Shown here in pieces: positions 14,622 to 52,662 of a stretch of DNA of 64,000 nucleotides (position 1 is the first letter of the stretch; every line of letters starts with the position of its first letter). Under the pieces are notes generated by a model. It saw only the letters and a list, made by a program, of their open reading frames with translations, had not been told where the DNA came from and ran no database searches. Source of the stretch: Sphaerolaimus hirsutus (lineage: Eukaryota; Nematoda; Chromadorea; Monhysterida; Sphaerolaimidae); NCBI GenBank assembly GCA_964036195.1, contig OZ038451.1, positions 20,100,318 through 20,164,317 of the forward strand. The letters run 5' to 3'. A program made the translations under genes and the position numbers.

Positions 14622-17600
14622 CCCCAGATTTAATTGGGCCGACAAATTTTTGCCCTCCCTGCCTGGCACCTGACACGCCCGTCACGCCTGCCAGGCGCCT
14701 GACACGACCAAGCGCCTGCCAGACGTGCCCTCACTCGTGCCAGATTTGCCCGAAAAATGGCAAGCGAGATTCAATTGTGAGGGCAACTCGGGCAAAATCA
14801 GGCAAATCAAAAAAGAAAAGGAATATTCTGCCCTGCACCCTCAGGGATGCAGGGCAGGTGGTTTTTTATGTTTTACGATATTTTTTATTGAAAATAAATG
14901 TTGAATATGAAATATCGTTCACTTCAAAGACCATGTAAAGTGTCGAATGTCATGTAAAAGCCCCTGTAAAGTGCCATGTGTCATGCAAAACTGTTAAAAA
15001 TCGTCATGCTCTCCGCTGCAAATGCATATTTTTATTATTTCTACTACCATATTATAAAGCCACTATTTATTCGTGTGGTAAGGATGCTCCAACGTAAAAG
15101 ATAGGATGTTTCTGCTTCTGCCCGATTTGTGTGTGTTTTTACACACAAAATGGACACTTTTTATCAGCACAAAATGCCCTTTACAATCACGATCCCTTTA
15201 CAATCTTGACAAACAGGGTTCACATATGGCAGAGTAGCTTTCCAAGAATGCAATTGCACATGTATAGGGGGTTGACTTGAGTTTTTAAGGGTTGAGTTTA
15301 CAATTCAGGGTTGAGTTGACAGGTGTTTATAAATTAGGGTTGAGTTGACTGAAGTTTAAAAATAAGGAGCTGTGTTGACAAAAGTTTACAAGTTAGAGGC
15401 TGAGTTTATGGGAGTTGAGTTGATGTGAGTTTACCAAATTAGGGGCTGAGTTTATGGGAGTTGACAATAGCATTACCATAACCCTTAAGTGAGGCCCCTG
15501 GGGCTAAAAAATATAAATTGTGAAATGATGCATTTGTGGGTTTCTGATTACAATGATTTGAAATATGCACTCCATTCTGACAGTACATTACCATAACCCT
15601 GAAAATGAACCCCCGGGGCCAAAAACGTTCAATTTGTCAAATAATGCATTTTTGGGTTTCTGATTGCTCCGATTTCAAATATGCACTCCATTTTGACACT
15701 ACATTACCATAACCCTAAAAATGAACCCCTGGGGCCAAAAACCTTTAATTTGTGAAATAATGCATTTTTGGGTTTCTACTTGCACTGATTTGATATATGC
15801 ACTCCATTTTGACACTACATTACCATAACCCTAAAAATGAACCCCTGGGGCCAAAAACTTTGAATTTGTGAAATAATGCATTTTTGGGTTTCTGATTGCA
15901 CTGATTTCAAATATGCACTCCATTTTGACTCTACATTACCATAACCTTTAAGTATAATGCCCAGAGCTTAAAAAATTAGAAATTGCACTGATTTGATATA
16001 TGCAATCCATTTTGACACTACATTACCATAACCCTGAAAATGAAACCCTGGGGCCAAAAAATTTCAAGTTGTGAAATAATGCATTTTTGGGTTTCTAATT
16101 GCACCGATTTCATATATGCACTCCATTTTGACACTACATTACCATCACCCTGAAAATGAACCCCTGGGCCAAACACTTTCAATTTGTGAAATAATGCATT
16201 TTTGGGTTTCTGATTACAATGATTTGAAATATGCACTCCATTCTGACAGTACATTACCATAACCCTGAAAATGAACCCCCGGGGCCAAAAACGTTCAATT
16301 TGTGAAATAATGCATTTTTGGGTTTCTGATTGCTCCGATTTCAAATATGCACTCCATTTTGACACTACATTACCATAACCCTAAAAATGAACCCCTGGGG
16401 CCAAAAACTTTCAATTTGTGAAATAATGCATTTTTGGGTTTCTACTTGCACTGATTTGATATATTCACTCCATTTTGACACTACATTACCATAAACCTGA
16501 AAATGAACCCCTGGGGCCAAAAACTTTCAATTTGTGAAATGATGCATTTGTGAGTATTTTCATGCACTGATTTCAAATATGCATTCCATTCTGACACTAC
16601 ATTACTGTAACCCTGATAATGAACCCCTAGGGCCAAAAATTTCAAATTGTGAAATGATGCATTTTGTAGGTTTCTAATTGCACTGATTTAAAATATACAC
16701 TCCATTTTGACTCTACATTACTGTAAGCCTTAGAATAGATCCCCTGGGGCTAATAAATTAGAAATTGTGAAATGTTGCATTTGTGGGTTTTTGATTGCCT
16801 TGATTTGAAATATGCACTCCGTTGAATATATGCATTACACCCTCCACCCTTAAATTAAACACCTGCATCTAACAAATTTGAAATAATTCTTTTTTGTAGG
16901 ATTAGAAAACTACAAAACCCGACCGAAGGTCGGAGAGAATCCTGCTAGTATAACTATAAAAGTGCTGTCTACGAATATGACGGTTGCTAAGATGTTTCAA
17001 ATAACATGTCCTGTAGTCTATGTGTGTGTGTCATCGGCTGCCGTTCCTATGCTCCTGTGTTCAAAGTCTCATGAGGTGCCAAACTTTTTTTGCACTTTTT
17101 TTAACAACCAGTAATTTAGCATGTTGAGTTACAATCAAATTTGTAACAAAAAGGATATAAATTTTTATTGGAAAATTATTTTTGCACTAACCATTCTGTA
17201 ATTTGGCTGTGATTTCAACTTAACCCTGCACACGACTTTAACATGCTAAACCATCATATTCTTGCACAGATTTTTTGAAATTTGGACAATTAAAATAAAC
17301 ATTTGTGGCGACAACTTTAAACGTTTTCCATTGCATCAGACATTTTACAGGATCTTTTTTCATGACACATGACATTTTACAGGGAATTTTACACATAAAG
17401 GGTTTTTTACAGGGTCTGGGACAGCCCCTGGATGCCGCTCAGCTATCTATGTATCCTGAGGCAGTATTTTTCGCTACTATCTCCTGCCCGCCCCCCAAAA
17501 AAAATCGCTCAGCAACAATCTATCCCCCATGTAGCAAATTATGAGCGATTTTGCCCTCATTTTTTTGCCTAAAATCACTCAAATTTGCTCCATTTTGAAA

Positions 17601-18183
17601 ACTTTGACCTACATAATCGCTATTTTTATCTTTTTACGTGGTTATGTACCTATTTTTGGCTTATTTTTTATATTTATGGCAATTTCGACATTTTTGGCTG
17701 GCTGCCATGTTTTTATAAGACGTATCTCCTATTTTTCTTTTTCTTTTCGGGAGTAAAATCCCTCCCGACACGCCCGTCGCGCCAGGCACCTGACAGCTGC
17801 CGCCCAACACGCAATTGAATCTCGATTTGTCTGGCAGTCGGGTGGCGGCTGTCAGGCGCCTGGCGCGACGGGCGGTCCGGCAGGATTTTACTCCCGAAAA
17901 TAAAAATAAAAATCGGACATACGTCTGTTGCAAACTTGGCAGCTGGCCAAAACTTACGAAATCGCCATAAAAATGAACATAGGTAGGTATATAACCGTGT
18001 ATAAATATAAAAATGGCGATTACGTAGGTAAAAGTTTTCAAAATGGAGCGAATCTGAGCCGTTGTGGGCAAAAAAGGTGCGGGCGGGCGGGCGAGGGCAT
18101 GCCTGTCCAATTAAATCTCGAATTGCCAGACACGCCCGTCATGTCCTCCCTCTCAGGGATAATCTGCCCAATTGAATCTGGGG
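14622..18183. mobile_element. 3.6-kb insertion in the satellite array (CCCCAGATTT ends)
   Basis: The left end CCCCAGATTTAATTGGGC and right end G(C)CCAATTGAATCTGGGG are inverted. The 5-bp target duplication CCTGG lies at 14617-14621 and 18184-18188; removing the insert restores a normal array unit (GAACCCCTGG-GGCCAAAAC). The insert itself contains a second Helitron-like array copy (about 15170-16948). Confidence 0.65.
17545..18090. repeat. Large foldback with GC-rich hairpin centre
   Basis: The arms at about 17545-17755 and 17885-18090 are inverted, imperfect copies (ACATAATCGC, GGGAGTAAAATCC, GCGCCAGGC). The central 17755-17885 forms a strong hairpin of CGCCCGTCGCGCCAGGC and its inverse. Confidence 0.6.
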
Positions 18184-19759
18184 CCTGGGGCCAAAACTTT
18201 CAAATTGTGAAATGATGCATTGTGGGTTTCTAATTGCACTGATTTGATATATGCACTCCATTTTGAGACTACATGTAACATTACCATAACCCTAAAAATG
18301 AACCCCTGGGTCCAAAAACTTTGAATTTGTGAAAAAATGCATTTTTGGGTTTCTGATTACAATGATTTGAAATATGCACTCCATTCTGACAGTACATTAC
18401 CATAACCTTAAAAATGAAACCCTTGGGCCAAAAAATTTCAATTTGTGAAATAATGCATTTTTGGGTTTCTAATTGCACTGATTTGATATATGCACTCAAT
18501 TTTGACACTACATTACCATAACCGTGAAAATGAACCCCTGGGGCCAAAAACTTTCAACTTGTTAAATAATTCATTTTAAAGTTTCTGATTGCACTGATTT
18601 CAAATATGCACTCCACTATGACACTACATTACTGTAACCCTGAAAATGAACCCCTGGGGCCAAAAACTTACAATTTGTGAAATGATGCATTTTTGGGTTT
18701 CTGATTGCACTGATTTCAAATATGCACTCCATTTTGACTCTACATTACCATAACATTTAGGTATAATGCCCAGAGCTTAAAACATTAGAAATTGCACTGA
18801 TTTGATATATGCACTCCAATTTGACACTACATTACCATAACTGTGAAAATGAACCCCTGGGGCCAAAAACTTTCAATTTGTTAAATCATTCATTTTAAAG
18901 TTTCTGATTGCACTGATTTCAAATATGCAGTCCACTCTGACACTACATTACCATAACCGTGAAAATGAACCCCTGGGGCCAAAAACTTTCAATTTGTTAA
19001 ATCGTTCATTTTAAAGTTTCTGATTGCACTGATTTCAAATATGCACTCCACTATGACACTACATTACTGTAACCCTGAAAATGAACCCCTGGGGCCAAAA
19101 ACTTTCAATTTGTGAAATGATGCATTTTTGGGTTTCTGATTGCACTGATTTCAAATATGCACTCCATTTTGACTCTACATTACCATAACATTTAGGTATA
19201 ATGCCCAGAGCTTAAAAAATTAGAAATTGCACTGATTTGATATATGCACTCCAATTTGACACTACATTACCATAACTGTGAAAATGAACCCCTGGGGCCA
19301 AAAACTTTCAATTTGTTAAATCATTCATTTTTAAGTTTCTGATTGCACTGATTTCAAATATGCAGTCCACTCTGACACTACATTACTGTAACCCTGAAAT
19401 TTAACCCCTGGGGCCAAAAATTTCAAATAGTGAAATAATGCATTTGTGGGTTTCTAATTGCACTGATTTGATGTATGCACTCCATTTTGACACTACATAT
19501 ACCATAACCCTGAAAATGAACCCCTGGGACCAAAATCTTTCAATTTGTGAAATAATGCATTTTTGGGTTTCTACTTGCACTGATTTGATATATGGACTCC
19601 ATTTTGACACCACATTACCATAACCCTGAAAATGAAACCCTGGGGCCAAAAAATTCCAATTTGTGAAATAGTTCATTTTTGGGTTTCTAATTGCACTGAT
19701 TTGATATATGCACTCCATTTGAACACTACATTACCATAACTGTTAAAATGAACCCCTGG

Positions 19760-20392
19760 CCCCAGATTTAATTGGGCAGATTATCCCTGAGAGGGAGGAC
19801 ATGACAGGTGTGTCTGGCATTTCAAGATTTGATTGGGCAGGCATGCCCGCACCGCCTGCCCAGCATGCCAGGCGCCTGACAGCCACCGCCCGACCGCCAG
19901 GCAGAGCAAGATTTAATTGCCAGCCAGGCGGCAGCTGTCAGGTGCCTGGCAGGACAGGCATGAACATAAGATTTGGATACACAAACATAAGTTTTGTATA
20001 CAAAACACAAGATTTGGATACCAAAAACATAAGATTTGTATACATGAAAAATAAGATTTGGATACAAAAAATTTTTTTGGATACACTATGGAAAAAGTCA
20101 AACTGAAAACATGAAAAGTTACCTGCCCTGTGCCTCTGAGGATGCAGGGCACATTTTTCATGTTCTGTTAAATTTTGCCAGGCATGCCCTCACAATTAAA
20201 TCTCATTTTGCAATTTTCAGGCAAGTCAGGCACTCATGAGGGTGTGCCTGGCAGGCGCTTGGGCGTGTCAGGCGCCTGGCATGCAGGGCGCAATTGAATC
20301 TTGTTTAACAACATTTTGTCTGGCATGCATGACGGGCGGATCAGGTGCCGGGCGCGGAGGGCAGAAATCTGTCTGCCCAATTAAATCTGGGG
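19760..20392. mobile_element. CCCCAGATTT TIR element, second copy in the array
   Basis: The ends CCCCAGATTTAATTGGGCAG and CTGCCCAATTAAATCTGGGG are almost perfect inverted repeats of 21 bp. The CCTGG duplication is at 19755-19759 and 20393-20397. The inside has CATAAGATTTGGATACA repeats and GGCGCCTGGC words. No ORF with known similarity. Confidence 0.75.
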
Positions 20393-22004
20393 CCTGGAGC
20401 CAAAAACTTGTCAAACTCAATTTGTCAAATCATTCATTTTTAAGTTTCTGATATCACTGATTTCAAATATGCACTCCACTCTGACACTACATTACTGTAA
20501 CCCTGAAATTTAACCCCTGGGGCCAAAAATTTCAAATAGTGAAATGATGCATTTTTGAGTTTCTACTTGCACTGATTTGTTATATGGACTCCATTTTGAC
20601 ACTACATATACCACAACCCTGAAAATGAACCCCTGGGACCAAAATCTTTCAATTTGTGAAATAATGCATTTTTGGGTTTCTACTTGCACTGATTTGATAT
20701 ATGGACTCCATTTTGACACCACATTACCATAACCCTGAAAATGAAACCCTGGGGCCAAAAAACTTCAATTTGTGAAATAATGCATTTTTGGGTTTCTAAT
20801 TGCACTGATTTGATATATGCACTCCATTTTGACACGACATAACCATAACCCTGAAAATGAACCCCAGGGGCCAAAAACTTTCAATTTGTGAAATGATGCA
20901 TTGTGGGTTTCTAATAGCACTGATTTGATATATGCGCTCCATTTTGACACTACATTACCATAACCCTAAAAATGAACCCCTGGGGCCAAAAACTTTCAAT
21001 TTGTGAAATGATGCATTTTTGGGTTTCTGATAGCACTGATTTCAAATATGCACTCCATTTTAACTCTACATTACCATAACCCTAAAAATGAACCCCTGGG
21101 GCCAAAAACTTTCAATTTGTGAAATGATGCATTGTGGGTTTCTAATTGCACTGATTTGATATATGCACTCCATTTTGACACTACATTACCATAACCCTAA
21201 AAATTAACCCCTGGGGCAAAAATTTCAAATAGTGACATGATGCATTTGTGGGTTTCTAATTGCACCGATTTGATATATGCACTCCATTTTGACACTACAT
21301 ATACCATAACCCTGAAAATGAACCACTGGGAACAAAATCTTTCAATTTGTGAAATGATGCATTTTTGGGTTTCTAATTGCACTGATTTGATATATGCACT
21401 CGATTTTGACACTACATATACCATAACCCTGAATATGAACCCCTGGGACCAAAATCTTTCAATTTGTGAAATGATGCATTTTTGGGTTTCTAATTGCACC
21501 GATTTGATATATGCACTCCATTTTGACACTACATTACCATCACCCTGAAAATGAACCCTGTGGAGCCAAATACTTTCAAATCATAAAATGATGCATTTGT
21601 GGGTTTCTGATTGCAACAATTTCAAATATGCACCCCATTTTGACACTTCATCACTAAAACCCTGATGATGAAGCCCAAAATCTTTCAATTTGTGAAATGA
21701 TGCATTTGTGGGGTTTCTAATTGCACTGATTTAAAATATGCACTCCATTTTGACTCTACATTACTGTAAGCCTTAAATTGATCCCCTGGGGCTAATAAAT
21801 TAGAAATTGTGAAATCATGCATTTGTGGGTTTTTGATTGCCTTGATTTGAAATATGCACACGGTTGAATATATGCATTACACCCTCCACCCTTAAATTAA
21901 ACACCTACATCTAACAAATTTGAAATAACGCTTTTTTGTAGGATTAGAACACTACAAAACCCGACCGAAGGTAACCGGAGATGATTCTGCTAGTATTTAC
22001 ATAA

Positions 22005-35953: not shown

Positions 35954-37579
35954 CAAGCACCTATTCGGTGGCGGCAACAAATTGCGTCGTCTGCGACGCA
36001 AATGCGAGCGCAGCGGCGGCGACGCGCAGGCGGCGCTCCAGTGCATCAGCGAGCGCACCGGGGTCGACATGGAGGCGCTCACGCCGGACACGTTCAAGGG
36101 GCACATGTGCGACGCGCAGACTAAGTGTGGAGACAGGTTCGGGGGGGGGTGAATGGGGTGGGAGGGACAGGCCCTGCCCGAGATTAGGGGGGGGGTGCAA
36201 AAAAGGTACAGTTTATGTGGCTGATACATCAAAATTGAATTTGATGTCTAATCCTGTCTAATCCTGGCAGAATCCTGGCAGGAATTTCCTGCTACTTCTG
36301 AATGAATCTAGAATATTCAACACTTAAAAAGTGATTGTGACATTGCAAAATCGTTTAACACAAAATCAACTAAAATATCCCAGCGCGCCAGTTCCAGAAG
36401 AATGTCAATCGATTATCCGCCAACGCCATATTGACACTTCTCGCGCCCTGTGCACTTGCTTTCAAGCAATCAGCGCAGACGTGGGCCAGGGGCCACTCCC
36501 TGACTCTGTAAAGAGTCACGGAGAATGTCTGATGTCATGCATGTTAAAAGTCATGTAGAGTGTCATGAAAAATGTCTAATGTACAGTATAGTAAAAATAA
36601 AAAAATTCACCGTTACAGGGCATTTTACATAACCTTTGACACTTTTCATGACATTTGACATTTCCCAGGACATTTTACATGACTTTTAGACAATTTCCAT
36701 GACTTTGATAATTTCCAGGACATTTTACTCAATTTTTGACACTTTGCATGATATAAAACATTTTCTAGAGCATTTTACATGATATTGGACACTTTGCATG
36801 ACATTTGACATTTTCCAGGGCATTTTATATGGTCTGGGAGTGCCTCAGGACACCTTGACGAGTGCATTTGAAGGGTGCAAACCGGACTATGAAAGGCGGG
36901 GTCATGGAAGGGGTCAGAGACGCGGGGGTCCATTCGGCAGGGGAGTCCATGGCCCCCTGAGACAGAGGGGTCCAATGCGGTTTTTGGGCAAAGATTGCAA
37001 TACCATTGGTCGATTTACTTGTTGTTGTTGTTTTATTCGCTTATTGTTTTGCTAATTTTACATACCGTATTCCTCGAAATACCCCCAGGGGGGGGGGGTT
37101 GAGAGTGGAAATTTTGAGTGGGGTATTTCGAGGGGGTATTATTTCGCCAGAATTTTTCGGTAAGGGTCGTAGTAAAGAGTGGCGTTTTACATCCCCAAAA
37201 CTGATAATAAACGTGACCAAACAGGATTACCTAGGTTAAGGTAAGACATATCGACGTAGATAGCTACACATACTAGTCTATGTGTAGTTGCGATGCAAAT
37301 TGACATGAATTAACACATCATGTATTTTGCATACATGATGTACCTTATTCCAGGTGGGGGGTATTTCGAGGGATTTTTTCTTCAGCTCGAGAACACCTGG
37401 GGGTATTTCGAGGGGTGGGGAGGGGGGTTAATTGAAGGGGGTAGTTCGAGGAAATACGGTATTTACAACAAATTGATCAGAAAAATTTTCATCCAAAAAT
37501 CTCAGACGATGAAATGCCTGACACTCCGAAGCCAGACTTCTGCGCGGATACAGCGACGCAAGCGCCAGATTTGCTTTGA
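35954..37579 (+). CDS. Cysteine-rich secreted-type protein, 3' exons (paralogue of the upstream gene)
   Basis: Four exons with fully consistent phases: 35954-36136 (basic, Cys-containing helices), 36384-36507, 36819-37008 (Cys, then an Arg/Gly-rich stretch) and 37506-37579 (acidic tail DDEMPDTPKP, one Cys, stop TGA). Phases run 2 in, 2/2, 0/0, 1/1. Cys spacing resembles the gene just upstream and the saposin-like gene at 41 kb, suggesting a local family. No signal-peptide exon was found for this copy; it may lie upstream or be shared with the 33.8-kb exon. The first exon shown is much more GC-rich than its surroundings and is preceded by long G and C tracts. The intron 36508-36818 is a splice-site-bearing inverted-repeat element, and its ends remain in the coding sequence. 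Function unknown. Confidence 0.6.
36482..36850 (+). mobile_element. Splice-site element forming an intron
   Basis: The inverted ends CAGGGGCCACTCCCTGAC and GGTCTGGGAGTGCCTCAG lie in coding sequence. The spliced part 36508-36818 starts GTAAAG and ends TTTTCCAG, phase 0 on both sides. Confidence 0.75.
37065..37459. mobile_element. ACCGTATTT-family TA element in an intron
   Basis: CCGTATTCCTCGAAATACCC to TTCGAGGAAATACGG, with TA flanks. It lies in the last intron of the cysteine-rich gene. Confidence 0.7.
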
Positions 37580-38445
37580 CGTTTTTTTTCTGAATATGAT
37601 GGCGCGTGAAGGAAGAAACCAATGTGTTTATTGTGAATGTGATTGTAGAAATGTGGAAGGATTGTTTGTTTTAATCATGAATCAAGATGTTGTTTTCTCG
37701 CTGATTTCTGAAGTAAATTCTGTAGTAAGTTTCTGGTTTCTGATGTTCCAGTAAATTAAGGATAGGTAATTATTCATCATTTTTGAATGCATGATTTTTG
37801 TATAATATTTAAATGGAATATTTAACGAAACAACAGAAATAACGATAAACAACACGTTAAAAGCGACCTTACATTTCGAAAAAATACGGTACTACCGCCA
37901 GATTTTGGGACTTTTCGGTAGAATAATTCGGCAGCTTGCTAATGACACCATTTTTCAGCAAAAACATAAAACCAAAGTTATTAGAAGCGCACAGAAGCAG
38001 CTGATGATGTGAATTGCATAAACAAAAATAGGTATAAAATGTACCTTTTGAGCCTATTGTGTTTATTTATCGTTTTTGAAACCTTTTTTGAGTAATGATG
38101 TAAAAGCGCCATGGCGATGGTATCTGGCGCTAGCGCCAAGGCAAAAAGCACCACGGCTAGGGCTCGAACTCGACTCGACTCGACTCGTGACTTGAGGGTA
38201 AAATTGGGTGCCGACTCGACTCATAACTGACTCGACCGGAAAATTTTTTGGGTTGCAACTCGAACTGAAATTTGAAAAAATTATGGCACTACCTTGCCCT
38301 GGCGCCATTGGCGCTTGGCGATGGGGGTCGGAAAGCGCCATGGCGCTTTTGGCACTTTTCTCATCACTACTTTTCAGTCAAGTAAAAGAGACTTTTATGC
38401 GCCTACGTGCAGTTGTTATGCTATTTTGAAAGTGAAATCGTCAAA

Positions 38446-40466
38446 ATGCACATGAGTATGCGATCAAAAGTATTTGTATTACTCATCATAACCTACACTC
38501 TGGCACTATTCCAAGTTTCCCATTCTAAATCCTTGATCCGAATGGAGCGAGCGAGCAGAAAATCCTGTTAGTCTGTCAAGAACCAAACAACCAAAAATGT
38601 CAACTCAAAATCGATTTGATTTCACTTGACTTGACAGTGTGCTATGCATTTCAATGGGAATGTCTAGAAGTGAATCAGTGCATAGACTCAAAGGACAGAT
38701 GTGATGGACACAGGGATTGTTCAGATGGGTCTGATGAATATAACTGCACAGGTGTGTTTCTGTGTTGCCAGTGTTTGCAGCAATTAATGCATCATGTACA
38801 TTGCATACATGATGTATAATATTCCAGACGGGGGTATTTCGAGGGGGGGACTATTTTTTTGCTAAGCTCGCTCAAACCTGGGGGTATTTCGAGGGGGGTT
38901 ATTCAAGGAGGGAAAATTCGAGGTAATACGGTATATGCATTTTGGTAGAGACTTTTGGTTTGGGGTGCACTACAGAGGGATTGACGCTTCGCAAGAAGGC
39001 GGAGTCGATTACAAACCAACAGAACTTTCATGTCTGAAAGAATTTTTTTAAAGAATTTGTATTTTATAAATGATGACCTCACGATGGAGTGGAGTGTTTC
39101 GTGCGGAAAAATGCTTGGCATGTGGTCCGCGGAGTATACTAATTACGTTTTCCGACAAAACATTTAGCATGCCGCGGGGACAGACACACGTTCCACTGCA
39201 GCAACAGGCAGTGTATCCAAGCGGACCAGGGCCACTCGCAGATTCTGCACAATTCCCTGTAAAATGTCAAGCGAAGTGTCAAAGTCTTGTCAAATGTCGC
39301 GAACATTCTCAATTTTTTACTTGTCATTTGGCACTTTGCATGATATTTGACATTATTCAGGGCAGTGTACAGGGTCTGGGACTGGCGACAGGTGTGCACG
39401 GGCAAGCCAGCCCGGTGCGATGACGGCTCAGACCAGATGCACACACATTGCCCTTTTGGTGGGTTAGGGGGGAATGATGGTTGACATGTTTCAGTTAGAA
39501 TGATTTAGTTCGAGAATGACCTATACTCGGCGGACATGATACTCTGCCCTAGCACTGATTTATGTCTCGTGTTGGAAGCGTGCCAATGATTATTTAATCA
39601 TGCGATTTCCGTAAAAAGATGAAAAAATTCATCGATGTGAATATGTTAATGAATAACATTATAACAACAATCATTTCTGTAATCTTTTTATGAAACCCGC
39701 ACGCGTTAACCATCTTTGGCGCACTTTCGGCGGGAACCACGCGTGCAAGGTGTAGTAACCGGAGTATACATACCATTCGGTTACATATAACTTTACCCCG
39801 GTGACAGTCCTGCTTAAGTACCCGTGCGCACTTGTAGCCCGCACAACGGGAAGGTTAAACTACTTAAGCCACGCCCTCTCCCCCCCCCACCAGCATGCAG
39901 AGGTTTCCTGTGCAGAGACAAAAGCAAGTGCATTCCAGCACACGAGCGCTGCGTCGGCTCAATACCCACATTTGCTGGATCCAACTGTGCAGATGGGTCA
40001 GATCAGAAGGATTGCCTCAGTTTGTTTTATTTGGCTAGCTGCCAACTGGTTGAGAGGAATGAACTGTGCAAATGATATTTCAGTTTTCCTGTGGCCCTTA
40101 CATGAAGTGTAAGGAGTGTCAAGTGTCATACAAATTTTATCAAATGTCTTGCAAAATGTCAATACCTAGTTTGGTAATAAATTTTTTTACCTGTTTTAAT
40201 TGACATTTAGAATGACATTCGACTTTTTTTACTTTACAGAGTACGACCTTGCCAACTGAGAATAATCTCATCACCGTAGTCACGACTTTGCAAATTCATT
40301 TCTGCACATGCAAAACAAAAGAGCATCCATGCAAAAAAATTTGCAAACACTCGCAGCCTGCGCACCGGGTGGCTTTCGCTGCGGCAACGGCGATTGCAGA
40401 TGGGCGTATCACAGATGCAATCGATATCAAGACTGTCCAGATGGAAGTGATGAAAATGATTGTTGA
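38446..40466 (+). CDS. Secreted protein with four LDL-receptor class A domains
   Basis: Six exons: 38446-38566 (Met and hydrophobic signal peptide), 38638-38751, 39168-39258, 39361-39458, 39894-40019, 40357-40466 (stop TGA). All junction phases agree and the total is 660 nt, giving 219 aa. Exon 2 holds a textbook LDLa domain with six Cys and the calcium-binding end CSDGSDEYNC. Exons 3-4 hold the second, split by an intron and carrying about 21 extra residues between its second and third Cys. Exon 5 holds the third, ending CADGSDQKDC, with a short insert before its fourth Cys. Exon 6 holds the fourth, ending CPDGSDENDC directly before the stop. LDLa modules bind calcium and protein or lipid ligands outside the cell; there is no transmembrane helix, so secretion is inferred. 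Exons 3 and 5 both begin by completing Ala-Cys-Arg-Gly. Specific function unknown. Confidence 0.88.
38935..39140. mobile_element. TACTCGGCGG-type MITE, right part
   Basis: It ends GTGGTCCGCGGAGTATAC and has AAGGCGGAGTCGATTAC and CGATGGAGTGGAGTGTTTC inside, as in the copies at 24.9, 28.5 and 47.9 kb. It lies in an LDLa gene intron. Confidence 0.5.
39220..39398 (+). mobile_element. Splice-site element forming an intron inside an LDLa domain
   Basis: The inverted ends CCAGGGCCACTCGCAGATTC and GGGTCTGGGACTGGCGACAG are retained in exons. The intron 39259-39360 (102 bp) starts GTAAAA and ends TTATTCAG, phase 2 on both sides. It splits the second LDLa repeat between Cys 2 and Cys 3. Confidence 0.82.
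39523..39768. mobile_element. Short TACTCGGCGG MITE, complete
   Basis: A 246-bp element from TATACTCGGCGGACATGATA to GTAGTAACCGGAGTATA, with imperfect inverted ends. It lies in an LDLa gene intron and is the uninterrupted relative of 29771-30864. Confidence 0.6.
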
Positions 40467-52425: not shown

Positions 52426-52662
52426 TAGTTGCAATGAACAAGTGTACGAAAAAGCACCGTTGACAAAAATGTCGAGTAAAATCAGAGGCCAATCCCAGAC
52501 CCTGTAAAATGTGAAACAGCCAGTAAAAGAGGAAATGTGACAAATTACAGGGAATTTTAAAGGGTCTGGGAGCGGCACCAAGAATAAAAATATGTCCAAA
52601 GCATCCTTCAATCCATAACAAACACCGGCCAAAGTGAAAAAGGTAATATTTGTACAGATCAT
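52400..52662 (-). CDS. Possible exon pair of a small membrane protein (unrecognised)
   Basis: On the minus strand an open stretch from Met at 52662 encodes a hydrophobic segment (ITFFTLAGVCYGL, then DIFLFLV), then runs into a splice-site element. Its CCCT/GTAATT donor and TTTACAG/GGT acceptor are both in phase 0, and the frame then continues to about 52430, where another transposon begins. No homologue is recognised, and there is no clear upstream or downstream exon. It could be chance. Confidence 0.25.

Follow-up and report, generated by a model that had tools for sequence, protein, structure and literature searches.

In the portions of the 2022 survey used here (Gozashti et al. 2022, PMC9860276), introners are reported from only two animal groups, and the elements treated are non-autonomous DNA transposons that make introns in exons, much like the repeat family presented below. 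Particular parallels are introner cases in Chrysochromulina, which bring their own donor and co-opt the acceptor, as is predicted for the present family, and a case in Aureococcus that adds codons, as would the intron proposed for the window, i.e., the whole stretch of 64,000 nucleotides that was analyzed. In contrast to the introners of these excerpts, however, our family duplicates CWG at its target, which would let the co-opted acceptor read either AG or TG, and it resides in an animal whose proteins are nematode-like. For Amoebophrya, the sections consulted (PMC7789003) describe introns that carry inverted repeats, are predicted to form hairpins, and in many cases have noncanonical splice sites. 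Counterparts of these traits are seen or predicted in our family, but the boundaries of the Amoebophrya introners vary widely, whereas here GT...(A/T)G is predicted, set by the element end and the target.

Among DNA transposons, the point of comparison is NuwaI of the PHIS (PIF-Harbinger) elements, which according to the consulted part of its description (PMC4482050) makes 5'-CWG-3' duplications, has terminal inverted repeats (TIRs) that usually begin with GGG and was found in that study in animals only. The CWG duplications and the GGG start of one end (the A end, see below) recur in our family; unlike NuwaI, its copies are mostly 160 to 200 bp long, and their other end reads GTGCC. No description of this family was recognized in the parts consulted of the literature on introners, be it in connection with transposons and Harbinger elements, with CAG duplications, or with nematodes. 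Introners as such are already known.

An LDLa domain interrupted by a dispersed element

The plus strand of the window carries a gene with at least four LDLa exons and phase-1 boundaries (Table 1). An earlier note, made from the letters of the sequence, had proposed a six-exon gene at this place, of which the four LDLa exons were verified. As the note had stated, the second LDLa repeat reads normally on either side of an inverted-repeat element. The left half runs as ACRGDRHTFHCSNRQCIQADQ to 39229, and the right half resumes at 39392 with VCTGKPARCDDGSDQMHTHC; the element between them proved to be 159 bp long and flanked by CAG. It does lie within the span 39220-39398 given for it, with true limits at 39230 and 39388. 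The interruption falls between Cys3 and Cys4, not between Cys2 and Cys3 as had been assumed. Minus the element, LDLa 2 reads ACRGDRHTFHCSNRQCIQADQVCTGKPARCDDGSDQMHTHC, has a Cys3-Cys4 gap of six residues, and is recognized as Pfam PF00057 LDLa (26.4 bits; cut-off, 24.1). The same spacing, with no added residues at the insertion place, is seen in an LDLa protein of Bursaphelenchus xylophilus (P0122; CIPATKRCDGKP versus CIQADQVCTGKP in the protein alignment), which was the sole hit when the four-domain protein was compared with the protein database at E 1e-10 (69 scored candidates). Since all six cysteines, the DGSD motif, and open frames in both halves survive on either side of an old element, it can be argued that both halves are still translated. 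The best protein relatives are from nematodes (Plectus sambesii, 52%; Bursaphelenchus xylophilus), an Srx receptor domain is encoded elsewhere in the genome (L053), and the host proteins point to nematodes or near relatives. Neither tRNA nor Rfam features were found in the window.

TABLE 1 Features of the LDLa locus in the window and domains that cross the junction at exonic copies elsewhere in the genome
Feature	Position or locus	Strand or orientation
Exon with LDLa 1 (CYAFQWECLEVNQCIDSKDRCDGHRDCSDGSDEYNC), phase-1 donor	38638..38751	+
LDLa 2 exon, whole, element included	39168-39458	+
LDLa 2 exon, 5' part (ACRGDRHTFHCSNRQCIQADQ), ending in the left target-site copy	39168..39229	+
Left target-site duplication CAG, within CCAGG	39227..39229	+
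Putative NuwaI-like MITE/introner copy of 159 bp; orientation AB or BB	39230..39388	+
Terminal GG; the family B end carries the predicted GT donor here	39230..39231	+
Internal GT, donor of the earlier note (CCCT/GTAAAATG)	39259..39260	+
Internal AG, acceptor of the earlier note (TTATTCAG/GGC), +60 nt in frame	39359..39360	+
Second internal AG, in frame with donor 39259, +48 nt	39371..39372	+
Right target-site duplication CAG; the family counterpart CWG is the predicted 3' splice site	39389..39391	+
LDLa 2 exon, 3' part (VCTGKPARCDDGSDQMHTHCPF), phase-1 donor	39392..39458	+
Exon with LDLa 3	39894..40019	+
Last exon, LDLa 4, stop TGA at 40464-40466	40357..40466	+
Pkinase	L092	BA
Urocanase	L094	BA
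E1_dh	L054	BA
Exo_endo_phos2	L022	BA
Zip (below curated cut-off)	L009	BA
PhoLip_ATPase_C	L043	BA
SSF	L097	BA
HNOBA	L027	BA
GPCR Srx	L053	BA
Oscp1	L104	BA

The element itself is near-palindromic, and its RNA fold (-62.4 kcal/mol) is more stable than that of shuffled sequences (-37.6 kcal/mol; sd, 3.6), with a z of -6.9, none of 200 shuffles being as good. Together with one CAG it amounts to 162 nt, which would bring in two in-frame stops if retained. It diverges by 17% from the family consensus (family median, 7%) and fits a synthetic BB consensus best (83.0, versus 79.5 each for AB and BA); its right end looks B-type, and at its left end GG replaces the GT of the B end. The window copy is accordingly an old, decayed member of the family, and because it lacks the terminal GT, the standard family donor is unusable.

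Several other repeats lie in the window. A longer inverted-repeat copy of the same kind occupies 36494-36842, upstream of the LDLa exons, and includes a tandem repeat of about 50 bp of the internal arm (36616-36831); a short family copy with two recognizable ends is found at 52486-52578. A second dispersed repeat with GGGGGTATTTCGAGG-like units is present at 37072-38946 and in other places, and several blocks at 15461-21859 consist of a satellite whose unit measures about 116 bp, with longer periods reaching 435 bp. A minus-strand open reading frame (ORF) at 57122-57565 matches Glycos_transf_2 and presumably represents a GalNAc-transferase.

A NuwaI-like family with two kinds of ends

The dispersal of the element claimed in the earlier note was confirmed on the scale of the genome. 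A DNA search (348 Mb, 762 contigs) returned 85 local matches from the 40 scored of 836 candidates, and a 31-base end pattern with at most three mismatches occurred 3371 + 3281 = 6,652 times (control, 0), a genome-wide number of end matches that is no count of introns. Copies were fetched from 39 places of the DNA search, from 30 + 20 matches of the 31-base pattern, and from 20 loci chosen for CTG at the B end, i.e., they were picked by similarity to the window copy or for an intact B end. The family copies are near-palindromic, and those fetched have ends of two kinds: A (GGGGCAGTCCCAGACC) begins with GGGGCAG, whose GGG fits a NuwaI TIR, and B (GTGCCAGTCCCAGACC) begins with GTGCCAG and lacks GGG. 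Their target-site duplication is a 3-bp CWG, the target often being CCWGG.

The flanking triplets of 102 BA copies were CTG/CTG in 43, CAG/CAG in 32, CTG/CAG in 8, and others in 19, five AA and five BB calls having been set aside; the excess of CTG stems in part from the 20 loci chosen for this triplet. For non-CWG triplets, a shift of at most two bases was allowed, and the CTA/CTG pair of L020 and L032 is thus printed as TAG/CTG. A few duplicate places are left in the set (L020/L032, L067/L068, and L107/L109). Judged from its CWG duplication and from the GGG at one of its termini, the family is provisionally classified as a non-autonomous, NuwaI-like DNA transposon of the PIF/Harbinger superfamily.

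A transposon with a DDE_Tnp_4 domain was considered as the autonomous partner and, as far as three fetched loci go, set aside. The genome contains 163 DDE_Tnp_4 matches; the three loci fetched from them (L118-L120 on G000:C47, C12, and C7), which are 97 to 98% identical, begin with GGCCCCACGCAC, unlike the family, and are devoid of family ends, so that a matching transposase was not found among these three. The long DDE_Tnp_4 matches listed mostly cross three to five in-frame TGA codons, perhaps an intron.

Insertions into conserved exons are biased in orientation in a chosen sample

Empty sites were reconstructed by joining the flanks of a copy at one CWG, and a Pfam domain was then sought across the join. 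Such a domain crosses the junction in 10 of 26 BA ORFs (Table 1), whose junction positions were verified, and in 0 of 21 ORFs with other orientations (20 AB and 1 BB). The Fisher p of 0.001 is only indicative, because coding score and visual inspection guided the choice of ORFs and only 20 of 54 AB rows went to Pfam; among the highest-ranking of the 34 rows left out, many are antisense to exons already assigned to BA. The domain ends at the junction in a Kelch (L073) and an LDLa (L070) ORF, and the remaining BA ORFs had no spanning match. Ungapped alignments with PDB chains extend over the junction in BCKDHA (L054), ALKBH7 (L116), IFT70 (L080), and urocanase (L094); for the P4-ATPase (L043), the best PDB alignment stops two residues past the junction, and the weaker 6k7g_A extends further. 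At the level of the family, the domain counts and the ungapped alignments speak for the central idea of the earlier note, namely, a mobile element that inserts into an exon and is removed by splicing.

Strand calls from coding scores gave 19 BA versus 4 AB among copies with a clear margin (p 0.003), and other settings gave 17:4 (p 0.007), 13:4 (p 0.05), 10:3 (p 0.09), and 7:3 (p 0.34); stricter calls thus weaken the orientation bias in this chosen sample. Overall, AB and BA copies have similar coding scores (means of 5.1 and 5.7; score of ≥8 in 18 and 18), since antisense frames of exons also score. The length of the joined ORFs was discarded as evidence, as it was near that of the control (median of 105 versus 88 amino acids; ≥150 amino acids in 17% versus 15%).

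The family is multi-copy, sequence-similar, and present in many genes, and its copies split coding exons and are missing from homologous proteins. For ALKBH7 and IFT70, nothing but the two halves of the split locus turned up in the genome search, and the BCKDHA-like gene (L054) has a second, uninterrupted relative in the genome (46% identity). Divergence of the listed exonic copies ranges from 2 to 11%, around the family median of 7%. At L015, an AB copy occupies a CAG target in an exon, as shown by 54% identity to L101 across the insertion site; these paralogues carry family copies at neighboring but different spots of the same exon, each thereby providing the empty site of the other. A GTAAAA 18 nt inside the L015 copy could pair in frame with the duplicated CAG.

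CAG and CTG targets differ in the predicted acceptor

The GT lies in the B end of the element, and copies at CAG targets have a potential acceptor CAG in the duplication, whereas copies at CTG targets have no AG there. CTG/CTG copies reside in conserved exons, as judged from Pfam (L043, L053, L054, and L104) or PDB alignment (L080 and L116). An in-frame AG within 30 nt downstream is available at 6 of 13 CTG loci, just 3 nt away at L116, and is absent within this distance at the other 7, IFT70 (L080) included, for which reason a downstream exonic AG was rejected as the general route of CTG copies. TG as a 3' end of U2 introns has been surveyed in humans (Szafranski 2007, PMC2374985), where, in the sections of the source used here, it occurs only as an alternative to AG and never as the sole site. 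A TG intron end would be common to both systems, but unlike the human sites with their ever-present AG alternative, the 7 CTG loci have no nearby in-frame AG.

An upstream CTG combined with a downstream CAG was observed in 8 of the 102 BA copies (7 independent; sign test, 0.016), and the reverse combination was observed in 0 of 102. Genome-wide, with segmental duplicates included, exact 20-base patterns at the B end matched 744 times with CAG and 646 times with CTG, and those at the A end matched 883 and 610 times, respectively; the two ratios differ with a p of 0.003. With the A end richer in CAG, it is the downstream copy, on the side of the predicted 3' splice site, that is richer in AG, and from these patterns CTG acceptors seem to mutate to CAG after insertion.

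Splice sites inside the element were also assessed. When donors 0, 18, and 30 of the BA consensus are paired with the two TTTTACAG acceptors, every combination misses the frame by one, and internal GTAAAA plus TTTTACAG was therefore set aside as the pair of splice sites of the family. The element's "own sites" of the earlier note, CCCT/GTAAAA and TTATTCAG/GGC, are probably not those of the family, whose predicted intron consists of the whole element and the duplicated CWG. In-frame internal GT-AG pairs do exist in the consensus (4 of 16; donors 44 and 56 with the same two acceptors), add 63 to 87 nt, and are open in two of the three phases. They are shared by the BA and AB consensus and consequently fail to explain the orientation bias; because of them, GT-TG is not the sole in-frame route at CTG targets.

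Splice options of the window copy

The junctions proposed before, with the donor GT at 39259 and an acceptor AG that ends at 39360, are indeed in phase and free of stops, and the 60 nt added correspond to 20 residues, not to about 21. The insertion contains 31 GT..AG pairs with a distance of 40 nt or more, and only two of them are in frame and stop-free, both from donor 39259 (AG ending at 39360 or 39372). The window counterpart of the first GTAAAA site reads GCACAA; the second, 29 nt inside, is out of frame with the duplicated CAG. It had been claimed that the gene is in frame with the noted intron only, but this did not hold: the frame is likewise preserved by the second internal pair, by exact removal of the element and one CAG (GG...AG), and by skipping exon 2. 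Since several in-frame routes exist, frame alone fails to single out the 39259/39360 intron. Neither product of internal splicing (+60 and +48 nt) has a Pfam match at E 0.01. The pair 39259/39360 appears to be the best GT-AG option and is treated here as a putative junction. The age of the copy, its missing terminal GT, and its nonstandard orientation make the junctions uncertain; AB and BB are the orientations in which none of the 21 tested ORFs had a spanning domain.

Proposed mechanism and alternative explanations

We consider it likely that the family is a DNA transposon turned introner and that the window copy is an old member spliced internally, although the in-frame internal pairs of the consensus temper this confidence. 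A standard copy combines an ancestral-looking A end (GGGGCAG) with a changed B end (GTGCCAG) and inserts at CWG, often CCWGG, whereby CWG is duplicated. In the exonic BA layout, CWG|GTGCC...CCCC-CWG|, the B end is upstream, and the intron would start with the GT of this end and include the downstream CWG up to its final base, leaving the message unchanged and no residue altered. The donor would thus come from the changed B end and the acceptor from the duplicated CWG, so that a CAG target may give a GT-AG intron and a CTG target a GT-TG intron, the TG acceptors then seemingly mutating to CAG. With its long hairpin, the element may draw the two splice sites close to each other. The window copy entered a CAG inside the LDLa 2 exon; without a terminal GT, it is now most likely spliced from 39259, probably with 39360 as the last base of the intron and with 20 residues added between Cys3 and Cys4.

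A reading in which the exonic copies are unspliced, being young insertions that are polymorphic or harmful or that create pseudogenes, would fit an assembly that represents one haplotype and the uninterrupted relative of one carrier gene (L054), but we regard this as rather unlikely in view of the orientation bias, the T-to-A asymmetry of the acceptor, the two lone halves of ALKBH7 and IFT70, and a divergence of the listed exonic copies that centers on the family median. Removal of the copies from DNA instead of RNA, by elimination as for IES or by frequent precise excision, would restore CAG and CTG targets alike without any need for splice signals; however, DNA excision should ignore the strand of the gene, whereas the exonic copies are biased to BA, and the T-to-A change affects only the downstream one of the two W bases, which makes this explanation very improbable. 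Within the introner reading, exact splicing of CTG-target copies as GT-TG introns with a TG acceptor is a tentative prediction, lowered in rank by the in-frame alternatives inside the consensus. These copies could equally make use of ordinary GT-AG sites with an internal or downstream exonic AG, gaining or losing residues and never using TG, a possibility that we likewise hold at less than even and that accords with the four internal pairs and the 6 of 13 loci with a nearby AG. It is at odds with the 7 loci, IFT70 among them, without such an AG, and it leaves unexplained why the domain-spanning CTG copies are BA, the internal pairs being equal in AB copies.

For the window copy, splicing at 39259/39360 has a chance that falls only a little short of even, and use of the other internal AG (ending at 39372) from the same donor is improbable. 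Alternatively, the element might disable exon 2, which would then be skipped to give a three-LDLa protein. Skipping is in frame owing to the phase-1 introns on both sides, the family donor has been lost, and the +60-nt product is not recognized as LDLa by Pfam, but the six cysteines, the DGSD motif, and the open frames that persist despite an element divergence of 17% are unexpected for an exon that has been untranslated since the insertion, and we deem this outcome unlikely. Exact excision as a GG-AG intron ending in the duplicated CAG would follow the family pattern and restore the ancestral LDLa with no extra residues; the CAG is intact, the product is a canonical LDLa, and L015 likewise starts with GG. 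To our knowledge, however, GG donors are essentially unknown, nothing here indicates that the host uses them, and a GTAAAA donor is available 29 bases inside the copy, all of which renders exact excision distinctly unlikely. The small remainder of the probability falls to a non-functional copy.

Implications

Introners explain bursts of intron gain, and a family of this size, in an animal whose genes resemble those of nematodes, would represent a natural experiment in which the same element has entered both CAG and CTG targets. This pair of targets offers a direct test of how strictly the spliceosome depends on AG; the T-to-A changes on one side would reveal the improvement of splice sites after an intron is born. 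The two kinds of ends suggest a route from transposon to introner, i.e., the change of one inverted-repeat end from GGGGC to GTGCC. A class of introns with TG as the only acceptor, which is a prediction here, would be remarkable if true when set against the consulted part of the human survey (PMC2374985). A splice signal that textbooks call unworkable is perhaps sometimes used at the CTG copies of this family.
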